DNA of 64,000 nucleotides from Gemmatimonadaceae bacterium (GTDB lineage: Bacteria; Gemmatimonadota; Gemmatimonadetes; Gemmatimonadales; Gemmatimonadaceae): assembly GCA_035606695.1 (NCBI GenBank), contig DATNEW010000017.1:1-64000 (forward strand), given 5' to 3'. A program made the position numbers and the translations under genes. The notes beneath the pieces were generated by a model, which was given only the letters and a program-made list of their open reading frames with translations, had not been told where the DNA came from and did no database searches. This document shows positions 24,581-62,779 of this stretch, one piece after another (positions within the stretch are counted from its first letter, which is position 1; each line of letters starts with the position of its first letter).

Positions 24581-24739
24581 GCCGCCTCCTGTCATCCCGA
24601 GCGGAGGCGCGTAGCGTGCCGCCTCCTGTCATCCCGAGCGGAGGCGCGTAGCGCCGGAGTCGAGGGACCCCCGTCCCGGCGGAGGAGTTCTCCTCGGCGC
24701 ACGGGGGTCCCTCGACTCGCTCCGCTCGCTCGGGATGAC
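24581..24739. repeat. GTCATCC...GGATGAC dispersed element with a duplicated left arm
   Basis: A 36-base unit (24581-24616) is repeated exactly at 24618-24653; each contains TCATCCCGAGCGGAGGCGCG. The second copy starts an inverted structure: GTCGAGGGACCCCCGT (24659-24674) pairs with ACGGGGGTCCCTCGAC (24701-24716), and the outer GTCATCCCGAGCGGA faces TCGCTCGGGATGAC ending at 24739. An inner GGAGGAGTTCTCCTC hairpin caps it. The element lies between the convergent permease and KimA-like genes. Related copies are at 61381-61421, 62688-62779 and 49897-49924. Confidence 0.75.
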
Positions 24740-26682: not shown

Positions 26683-26764
26683 TACGGCTCTCTCGAGGCT
26701 ACTCATCGAAATAGAGCGCGAGCCGCGTAAAGATTCCGTGAAATTTGGGGGTTGTCGGCGGGAA

Positions 26765-27046
26765 TTACCCCGCGACTCGAATCACGACATAGCCCGACAC
26801 GACTTGACTGCCGCGCGGAATTCGGCGGCGCCGAGACGCCACCTCGGTTGACGTGTCGTTGACGATGGTTGCCGTTCCTTCGACGATGTCTCCCGTCGCC
26901 GGAATGACGTCGCCAGCCGCGCACAACACCAGGTCGCCCGCCTTGAGCCGCGCCGCCAGCGCGACCTCGAATTCGAGCTTGTCGATCGGTCCGCCATGCT
27001 CGGGGTCCGACGCGTCGAGGAGGCGAACGTGAGTTGGAAGGCGCAT
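26765..27046 (-). CDS. Isolated KdpB actuator-domain fragment
   Basis: A 93-residue protein matching only the central part of the KdpB actuator domain of the potassium P-type ATPase. AGDLVLCAAGDVIPATGDI corresponds to the 'K.GD.V.V.AGD.IP.DG.V' segment, and GSQVVSGYVVIRVA to the domain's closing strand. Where KdpB has the catalytic TGES loop, this protein reads NDTSTEVASRRRRIPRG, so dephosphorylation chemistry is impossible; there are no membrane helices, P-loop or DKTGT site. It has its own ATG with GGA about ten bases upstream and an intact frame, so it may be expressed. It is either a remnant of a lost kdpFABC operon or a repurposed domain, between the KdpD-like kinase and KimA. Confidence 0.7.
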   Translation of the reverse strand: MRLPTHVRLLDASDPEHGGPIDKLEFEVALAARLKAGDLVLCAAGDVIPATGDIVEGTATIVNDTSTEVASRRRRIPRGSQVVSGYVVIRVAG

Positions 27047-27151
27047 GATAGAGTCCGGTAATACTCTCCGAACGCTGGATCGCGGCGCATATGCGCGGCG
27101 TGAAGGATGTGCCGCGTTGCGTGAAGCTTTCGTAAATGAAAGTCGACGCGA

Positions 27152-28237
27152 CTACGACTCGTCCCCGCTGCTCGTCGCATCCAGATCGATCGCCGGCACC
27201 GTCAGTGTAAACACGCTCCCTCCCCCCTCGCGCGCCGCGAGCGTCACAGTCCCACGCTGCGCCTCGGCGATCCCGCGGGCGATCGATAGCCCGAGCCCCG
27301 CGCCCGCCACGTTCAACGCCTCGCCGGGACGCCGATAAAACGGCTCGAAGATGCGCTGGCGTTCGCTCTCCGCGATGCCCGATCCGCGGTCCGCGACCCA
27401 GAACTCGAGCGACGAGTCGCGACGCCGCGCGCCGACCTCGATCGGCGCGCCGGCAGGCGAGTACTTCGACGCATTGTCGATGAGATTGACCAGCACGCGC
27501 AGCGTTTGCACGAAGTCGAACCCGCCGAACAGCATGCCGTCCGACGGTTCGACATGCAGCACCAGCGGATGTCCGTCGAGCCGCCCCTGTACCTGCTGCG
27601 CAGCGGCGCCGAGCAAGTCTTCCGCTTCGTTGGGCTGCACATCGAGTGCGGCGGTGCCCATCGTGACGCGCGAGAAGTCGAGCAGCTTGCCGACGAAGGC
27701 GTTGAGCCGATCGGCCTCTTCCTCGATGATCTCCGCGCGTTCGTCGCCCGCGTCGGCGATCTCGTGCGCGAGGCCTTTGATCGTCGTCAGCGGCGTGCGG
27801 AGGTCGTGCGACACCGCGGCCAGCACCGCATCCTTCGACCGATTCGTTTCCTCGAGCGAACGCGCTCGGCGCGTCGTCGCTTCCAGGCGCTCGCGCTCCG
27901 CGCCGAGTGCCTGCGCGCGGTAGAGCAATTCGGCGGCGATGATGCTCGTCATCAAGAACGCGACGAGCACGAACCAGTCGATCGGGTTCGCGATCGCGAA
28001 CGTGCCGTACGGCGGCAGGAAGAACCAATTGAAGGCGAGAAACGACGTCACCGCGAGCGACAGGCCGAGCGCTCGTCCGCCGCGCACGCTGGCGAGTTGT
28101 ACGACGATCAGGTATGCGAGCGCGACATGCGCCGCGTTCAGCCGGTCGCGCACGGCGACCATCGCCGCGGTCACGCCGGTCAGCGCCGCGAACGAGACCG
28201 TCCAGACGAACCACCGCGATGATGAGCGAATCCTCAT
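27152..28237 (-). CDS. KdpD-like sensor kinase lacking the N-terminal KdpD/USP half
   Basis: A 361-residue histidine kinase corresponding to the C-terminal half of KdpD. Residues 5-105 hold four closely spaced membrane helices of the DUF4118 type, including FNWFFLPPYGTFAIANPIDW. The phospho-acceptor His is in AAVSHDLRTPLTTIKGLAHE. The ATPase domain has LVNLIDNASKYSPAGAPI, ADRGSGIAESERQRIFEPF and AGAGLGLSIARGIAEAQRG. The N-terminal P-loop and universal-stress domains of full-length KdpD (about 400 residues) are absent. The start is fixed by the ATGA overlap with the kdpE stop. It should phosphorylate the KdpE-like protein in response to potassium or turgor, here presumably controlling the KimA-type importer. 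Confidence 0.88.
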   Translation of the reverse strand: MRIRSSSRWFVWTVSFAALTGVTAAMVAVRDRLNAAHVALAYLIVVQLASVRGGRALGLSLAVTSFLAFNWFFLPPYGTFAIANPIDWFVLVAFLMTSIIAAELLYRAQALGAERERLEATTRRARSLEETNRSKDAVLAAVSHDLRTPLTTIKGLAHEIADAGDERAEIIEEEADRLNAFVGKLLDFSRVTMGTAALDVQPNEAEDLLGAAAQQVQGRLDGHPLVLHVEPSDGMLFGGFDFVQTLRVLVNLIDNASKYSPAGAPIEVGARRRDSSLEFWVADRGSGIAESERQRIFEPFYRRPGEALNVAGAGLGLSIARGIAEAQRGTVTLAAREGGGSVFTLTVPAIDLDATSSGDES

Positions 28238-28935
28238 GGCGGCAGCTCGTTCTCGAAGCGATACCCGACGCCGGGCTCCGTCACGATGATGCGCGGACGC
28301 ACCGGATCGCGCTCGATCTTGCGGCGAATGCTGCGAATGTGCACGCGCAAGTACTGTTGCATGTCGCCGTGCGAGTTCCCCCAGACCGCATGAAACAGCT
28401 GGCGATGCGTCATCGTGCGCCCGGCGTTTTGAATCAAGGTTCGCAGCAGCTGCCATTCGGTCTTCGTGAGATGCGCCGCGACGCCGTCGCGCTTCACCGA
28501 CGGCTTCGCGAGATCGATCGACGCGCCGTCGATCTCGAGCACGTGCGCCGGGACCGCCGCGGGCGCGAGCCGTGCGCGCCGTAATTGGGCGCGCACGCGC
28601 GCCTGCAGCTCGATCGTGCTGAATGGTTTCGCGATGTAGTCGTCGGCGCCGGCATCGAGGAGCGCCGCTTTCTCGTTGACGGAGCCACGCGCCGACAAGA
28701 CGACGATCGGCGCCGCCGACCACGCGCGAATCGACCGGCACACGTCCGCGCCGTCGACGTCGGGCAGCCCAAGATCGAGAATGATCAGCGACGGACGCTC
28801 GGCCGCGGCGAGGTCGATGCCCGCGCGGCCGGTCGACGCCTCGATGACCTTGCCGATGCCGGCTTCGACGGCGTTGCGAACCACGCGCCGGATTTGCGGT
28901 TCGTCGTCAATGACGAGAACGAGATCGTGCTCCAC
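28234..28935 (-). CDS. kdpE: KdpE-like OmpR-family response regulator
   Basis: A 233-residue two-domain regulator. The receiver has VLVIDDEPQIRR, phospho-acceptor Asp in LIILDLGLPDVDG, switch residue in IVVLSARGS and conserved Lys in YIAKPFST. The C-terminal winged helix (about residues 130-228) has LTKTEWQLLRTLIQNAGR, the recognition region QYLRVHIRSIRRKIE and the closing VGYRFE. Spacing and sequence match KdpE. It starts with GTG (28935-28933), since no in-frame ATG is near. The kinase follows by an ATGA overlap, so the pair is translationally coupled. No kdpFABC is present, so its target may be the KimA-like gene downstream. Confidence 0.9.
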   Translation of the reverse strand: MEHDLVLVIDDEPQIRRVVRNAVEAGIGKVIEASTGRAGIDLAAAERPSLIILDLGLPDVDGADVCRSIRAWSAAPIVVLSARGSVNEKAALLDAGADDYIAKPFSTIELQARVRAQLRRARLAPAAVPAHVLEIDGASIDLAKPSVKRDGVAAHLTKTEWQLLRTLIQNAGRTMTHRQLFHAVWGNSHGDMQQYLRVHIRSIRRKIERDPVRPRIIVTEPGVGYRFENELPP

Positions 28936-49896: not shown

Positions 49897-49924
49897 GTTA
49901 GATCCCTCGCTTCGCTCGGGATGA
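49897..49924. repeat. Half copy of the GTCATCC..GGATGAC dispersed element
   Basis: GATCCCTCGCTTCGCTCGGGATGAC has the right-hand end of the elements at 24581-24739 and 62688-62779 (ending TCGCT..GGATGAC). No left arm is nearby; it lies between the pilC stop and its terminator. Confidence 0.55.
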
Positions 49925-49927
49925 CGC

Positions 49928-61380: not shown

Positions 61381-61421
61381 GTCATCCCGAGCGAAGGCGC
61401 GCAGCGCGGCAGTCGAGCCCC
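61381..61421. repeat. Partial copy of the GTCATCC..GGATGAC dispersed element
   Basis: GTCATCCCGAGCGAAGGCGC followed by a GTCGAGCCCCCGCC-like inner arm matches the left half of the element at 24618-24674. No inverted right half follows. It lies in the 201-base gap between pilB and the aminotransferase gene, next to the aminotransferase stop. Confidence 0.55.
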
Positions 61422-62687: not shown

Positions 62688-62779
62688 GTCATCCTGAGGG
62701 CCGCAGGCCCGAAGGACCCCTCTCTAAGCGGAACGCTCTCCTCGGCGACTGAGGGGTCCTTCGCTTCGCTCAGGATGAC
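62688..62779. repeat. Complete copy of the GTCATCC..GGATGAC dispersed element
   Basis: The ends GTCATCCTGAG and CTCAGGATGAC are inverse complements. The inner arms GAAGGACCCCTC (62711-62722) and GAGGGGTCCTTC (62751-62762) also pair, with an AGCG...CGCT loop region. The element lies directly after the stop of the HAD-like gene at 62792. Confidence 0.75.

Follow-up and report, generated by a model that had tools for sequence, protein, structure and literature searches.

Genes and features at the locus

The window, i.e. the whole 64-kb stretch of DNA from a soil bacterium of the Gemmatimonadaceae that was analysed (genome G000 below), carries a KdpE-like response regulator, a short histidine kinase, an open reading frame (ORF) for a KdpB actuator (A) domain and a KimA-like importer in this order, the regulator and the kinase being situated upstream of the ORF and the importer downstream (Table 1). 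The sequence-only reading of this DNA had placed the ORF between a KdpD-like kinase and a KimA-like importer, and both neighbours were confirmed by domain matches. The kinase consists of DUF4118 and the kinase core only and lacks the N-terminal/USP part of KdpD. The permease is classed as KimA-like through its APC-type domain and its similarity to K_trans, with K+ transport as the predicted function; its start may be an internal ATG about 8 codons in, and 33 of 148 relatives have homologues. A dispersed repeat, GTCATCCCGAGCG(A/G)AG, occurs in five copies in the window (0.03 expected), two of them in the intergenic region after 24568 and within a larger palindromic repeat.

Table 1. Position of genes, putative regulatory boxes and repeats in the window
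Feature	Position	Strand	Basis or remark
Stand-alone KdpB A-domain gene	26765..27046	minus	Homologous to KdpB ~98-193; copy at the same place in G003; omega of 0.24; A-domain model matches 7lc6_B (Z 13.6)
KimA-like potassium importer (predicted), APC superfamily, 650 aa	24754..26706	minus	AA_permease_2 3e-30, K_trans 5e-5
Short KdpD-like histidine kinase, DUF4118 + HisKA + HATPase_c	27152..28237	minus	Domain matches
KdpE-like OmpR-family response regulator	28234..28935	minus	PRK10529 KdpE is best model, E=1e-66, under its curated cut-off
Putative KdpE-type box TTTACG-AAAGC-TTCACG	27120..27136	minus	74 bp upstream of A-domain ATG
Putative KdpE-type box TTCACG-GAATC-TTTACG	26726..26742	minus	Upstream of KimA-like gene
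Repeat GTCATCCCGAGCG(A/G)AG	24591-24606		
Repeat GTCATCCCGAGCG(A/G)AG	24628-24643		
Repeat GTCATCCCGAGCG(A/G)AG	49910-49925		
Repeat GTCATCCCGAGCG(A/G)AG	61381-61396		
Repeat GTCATCCCGAGCG(A/G)AG	62764-62779		

A free-standing actuator domain of KdpB

The ORF comprises 93 codons from ATG to TAA, the ATG being the first start codon within a stop-free stretch of 128 codons. The best-fitting family is KdpB (TIGR01497, E=3e-6), with a score of 25.6 bits that does not reach the curated KdpB cut-off of 527.9 bits, while Pfam E1-E2_ATPase matches just under its curated cut-off (E=1e-5). Solved KdpB chains in the PDB match as well (E=7e-5), and the ORF is 46% identical to the KdpB of the congeneric genome G002. 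No membrane helices, P domain (with the DKTG phosphorylation site) or nucleotide-binding N domain were found in the 93-aa product, in agreement with the earlier description of an orphan that holds the actuator domain only; its coordinates were exact, and the strand, which had been left out, is minus. TGES is missing and the corresponding stretch, ATIVNDTSTEVASRRRRIPRGSQVVSGY, is Arg-rich, with STEVASRRRR occupying the position of TGES, just as had been read from the letters. It had also been claimed that the ORF keeps a start codon, a ribosome site and an intact frame; the start and the frame stand, but the putative ribosome site is weak, consisting of GGA alone 7 nt 5' of the ATG (ACCGGACTCTATCATG). 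The GC content by codon position is gene-like (0.73/0.49/0.76), that of the flanking spacers being 0.55-0.56.

Homology together with a syntenic copy in a congener (G003, see below) makes the ORF more than a chance frame, a possibility that was ruled out by homology, synteny and codon conservation. The N-terminal stretch ASDxxHxGxIDKL is common to the ORF and the KdpB of G002 and is absent from other KdpBs, and descent within the genus is therefore a simpler explanation than horizontal arrival, which was rejected. A loss of TGES by paired compensating frameshifts was also rejected for the window, as translations in the other frames gave a weak GVSAP match only and the local DNA alignment score fell inside the range of shuffled sequences (17 of 200 shuffles scored as high).

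A structural model of the 93-aa product was made with AlphaFold from an alignment of 28 sequences including KdpB A domains (pLDDT 86, pTM 0.77), and the best structural match was KdpB 100-193 (7lc6_B; Z 13.6, rmsd 1.8 over 86 residues). Comparison of a predicted structure with the KdpB A domain had been proposed as a check, and its outcome agrees with the assignment, although the model relies on the KdpB sequences in the alignment and the two orphans of G000 and G003 alone gave an uninformative model (pLDDT 41). The sequence is thus compatible with the beta-core fold of the A domain, the model being no independent proof of it.

Loss of the Kdp pump

When searching the own genome of the ORF, an assembly that is 99% complete, neither KdpA nor the KdpD N-terminal domain (PF02702) was found. 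Nor does it contain any KdpB over the cut-off, and the idea that the ORF is a distant duplicate of some other KdpB in this genome was therefore dismissed.

In G002 the gene order is KdpA-KdpB-KdpC-porin-KdpD(USP)-kinase-KimA. The same array is found in G035 and G065 with KdpE and a kinase of the short type in front of KdpA, and in G023 with a kinase in front of the same genes. Together these four relatives display a full locus of the form KdpE-kinase-KdpABC-porin-KdpD(USP)-kinase-KimA, and since relatives carry this array, the locus in the window is the remainder after a deletion of the pump. It corresponds to the array minus everything between the kinase and KimA, except the A domain. In G002 the KdpD is split (L075:4483-8050) into an N-terminal/USP protein of 398 aa and a small kinase-like protein of 313 aa. 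Many kdp loci of this family also contain the large porin-like gene that lies between KdpC and KdpD in G002.

Distribution of the A-domain gene

A search of related genomes for the same short gene in the same place, as had been suggested, revealed it in G003, where it lies between the same kinase and KimA. The two copies are 44-47% identical depending on the method, the neighbouring proteins being 70-82% identical. In a MAFFT alignment the ATG falls at the same residue and all gaps comprise whole codons; both copies have lost TGES and the same 12 nt (four codons) in the GGDRSA stretch, and the ribosome site is weak in G003 too. The stop codon differs, as the frame in G003 extends to 133 aa, overlaps the start of KimA and terminates in the KimA start codon (ATGATCTCATATAA). 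The three remaining congeners, G001, G004 and G005, keep KdpE-kinase-KimA without the A-domain ORF. The earlier expectation for decaying debris, absence from all relatives with frameshifts in sister strains, is thus not what was found, yet three out of five congeners simply lack the gene. Since these harbour the same kinase and importer, and since the stop is not conserved in G003, the A-domain gene is dispensable.

A tree of KdpE, the kinase core and KimA gave the topology (G000,(G001,G003)) with G004 and G005 outside. The start residue, the lost segment and the whole-codon indels common to G000 and G003 argue for a single origin before the split of G000, G001 and G003, and in the simplest history the gene arose once and was then lost once, in G001; the alternative would be that truncation took place twice, independently, each time with an identical start and loss of an identical segment.

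Outside the genus, G075 harbours the order KdpE-kinase-[205-codon frame]-porin (frame at L039:1180-1794, minus strand). Its product (203-205 aa) matches KdpB residues 27-190 (E=8e-10) and does not extend beyond the A domain; two hydrophobic segments correspond to the M1-M2 region, and TGES is missing. In G049, of another genus, an A-domain core of 82 codons with an early stop is located between KdpE and the porin (L038:3221-3466, plus strand) and may be a relic. KdpA is absent from both assemblies, which are 85% (G075) and 79% (G049) complete. HMM searches covered the fetched loci, 179 genomes of the family and 395 of the phylum, with a limited number of candidates scored per genome so that misses are possible; among the candidates scored, orphan copies were found in G000, G003, G075 and G049 and no others, and 26 loci with the importer showed none. 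A 254-aa frame in G367 turned out to be the result of a contig end. In the open-access literature no account of a stand-alone KdpB A domain was found.

Selection on the coding sequence

The dN/dS test that had been proposed was performed as a pairwise codon maximum likelihood analysis of the ORFs of G000 and G003 and gave an omega of 0.24 (likelihood ratio test against 1, p=2e-5), a value that spans both the time inside an intact KdpB and the time as a free gene. For the kinase, KdpE and KimA omega is 0.05-0.07, the ORF being about fourfold higher. Over the first 58 codons the +1 frame gave an omega of 1.07 and the +2 frame one of over 7, and both shifted frames carry two stops in G003. The mismatches between the two copies are distributed as 42/29/54 over codon positions 1/2/3 (permutation p=0.0013), with about half of the third positions changed. 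In a neutral simulation run to a third-position identity near 0.5, both frames stayed open in 5% of the runs and the identity of the N-terminal half was 0.19, against 0.55 observed; as it leaves out indels and takes the G002 sequence as the starting point of decay, the simulation serves as a rough yardstick.

The residues that are invariant in the KdpB of relatives are not evenly retained. The copy in the window has retained 11 of the 14 that precede the TGES segment and 8 of the 35 within it (Fisher p=7e-4), that in G003 10 of 14 and 9 of 35 (p=0.008), and that in G075 9 of 14 and 11 of 35 (p=0.054). This pattern suggests that constraint has moved and not merely relaxed, the firmest part of KdpB having been released while the beta-core was held, and it is a stronger argument than an omega from two sequences. 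Selection on the coding sequence of the A domain is thus fairly well supported.

Of the two options that the sequence-only reading had left side by side, a fresh relic is disfavoured, as the copy in G003 has the same ATG and whole-codon indels at an omega of 0.24 with half of its third positions changed. The other, that the domain was retained for a new job, is favoured, since the most invariant segment of KdpB is lost, the beta-core is kept and a second genus (G075) likewise has this domain behind the same kinase.

KdpE-type boxes

When searching the 64-kb window with TTYAYG-N5-TTYAYG two strict matches appeared against 0.11 expected, a figure that is no independent test since the pattern was chosen after reading both sites. 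One precedes the A-domain ORF and the other the importer. The former, putative box shares its geometry with the KdpE site of E. coli, in which the 6-bp repeats TTTATA and TTTACA are separated by 5 bp (PMC3264566). A box was found at the matching place in G003, and in G075 one is located just after the kinase gene and before the A-domain frame. In G001-G005 and several relatives the pattern is found no more than 75 bp from the KimA match, and hardly elsewhere, and direct repeats of this type were identified upstream of KimA at eight loci of Gemmatimonadota relatives (L041, L073, L075, L076, L078, L079, L083 and L084), while G002 has a relaxed match, TTTACG-AGATC-TTTATA, ~300 bp before the start of KdpA. 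Recurrence before KimA in relatives together with the resemblance to the E. coli site gives independent support for the boxes, and suggests that KdpDE controls KimA in Gemmatimonadota relatives. Since such boxes precede KimA in many relatives, the data further suggest that in these bacteria the KdpDE circuit has been switched over from KdpABC to a KimA-type importer. No sigma-70-like promoter was found in the region.

Possible function of the A-domain gene

The explanation that we consider best, at a probability of roughly 40%, is that the A domain was left after the loss of the pump and is now an independent gene acting in K+ uptake. From a locus of the type KdpE-kinase-kdpABC-porin-KdpD-kinase-KimA, the genes kdpABC, the porin, the gene for the N-terminal (USP) part of KdpD and its kinase would have been lost, and the A domain of KdpB would have remained under a KdpE box as a small gene of its own. 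At low K+ KdpE would most likely induce this gene along with the KimA-like importer, and the gene product, presumably soluble and folded as a beta-core, would work by binding and not by catalysis, because TGES is missing. By its position the likeliest partner would be the short KdpD-like kinase or the importer, the two candidates that the sequence-only reading had named, and binding might then exert feedback on K+ uptake. The loss of both the KdpD kinase domain and the target serine would fit, because without a pump to inhibit a phospho-switch has no purpose.

A slow relic stays a serious rival, since the genus can do without the gene, the stop is unconserved in G003 and the ribosome site is weak, but it is the less probable reading and on balance rather unlikely. 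Here kdpB would have been cut down, possibly twice independently and recently in each line, the low omega would be carried over from a working KdpB and the intact frame would be due to luck and high GC. The absence from three of five congeners and the shorter, stop-terminated fragment in G049 fit such decay, as does an omega fourfold over that of the neighbours, which a partly neutral branch would give. However, the features common to G000 and G003 point to the one origin described above, and neutral decay that acts uniformly cannot degrade the most conserved half of the domain and yet spare the other.

It is improbable that the ORF acts in cis only, as a translated leader or spacer whose translation tunes the downstream importer, for instance by coupling. 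The ORF does lie between two boxes and its counterpart in G003 does end in the KimA start codon, but in the window 58 bp separate the stop of the ORF from the annotated KimA start, the conservation of amino acids tracks the beta-core and not the 3' end, G001 has a close KimA box without the ORF, and no Rfam match was found in the region. That the domain is a folding or docking partner of another P-type ATPase or an unrelated protein, and not of the Kdp regulators, is very unlikely, for although other P-type ATPases are present in the genome no specific link to them was seen, and position and boxes tie the ORF to KdpDE and KimA.

If the gene for the retained A domain is functional, this would be a rare instance of a single non-catalytic domain of a P-type ATPase outliving its pump, inside the circuit that once controlled the pump. 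As KdpD was only recently shown to act directly on the A domain of KdpB (PMC11018627), a free A domain adjoining a KdpD-like kinase would make feedback from pump to kinase testable without the pump. The more general proposal, that pump-less bacteria have repeatedly, in at least two genera, kept an actuator domain without the TGES loop as a KdpE-controlled regulatory protein linking a short KdpD kinase to a KimA-type importer, is speculative and for now doubtful.

Comparison with known systems

Among the other orphans, the gene in G003 resembles that of the window in place, size and loss of TGES but differs in its stop; that in G075 has the same kinase and box in front and lacks TGES as well but keeps M1-M2, and that in G049 is an A-domain core adjoining KdpE and the porin, but shorter. 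Compared with the actuator domain in KdpB of KdpFABC (E. coli 7lc6_B and 5mrw_B; TIGR01497), the ORF is homologous over residues ~98-193 and shares the beta-core GD-(V/I)-L-x-x-GD-(V/I)-P. In contrast to that KdpB it is a separate gene without membrane, P and N domains, it has lost TGES and the GGDRSAVTGG segment, and its genome lacks KdpA and KdpC.

In E. coli the N-terminal domain of KdpD phosphorylates Ser162 in TGES of KdpB, and the interaction has been modelled on the A domain (PMC11018627). Even in isolation this N-terminal domain directly recognises the A domain of KdpB (PMC11018627), and a free A domain could therefore in principle be a ligand of KdpD. Here neither the N-terminal kinase domain (PF02702) nor the target serine is present, and the absence of the former from the genome argues against docking of the E. 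coli type. A further parallel is KdpF, a small membrane peptide of the kdp operon which is reported to act on mycobacterial sensor kinases (PMC3618439). KdpF is likewise small, stems from a kdp locus under KdpE control and has been proposed to work through binding, the difference being that it is a membrane peptide of 30 residues while the product considered here is a KdpB fragment of soluble type.
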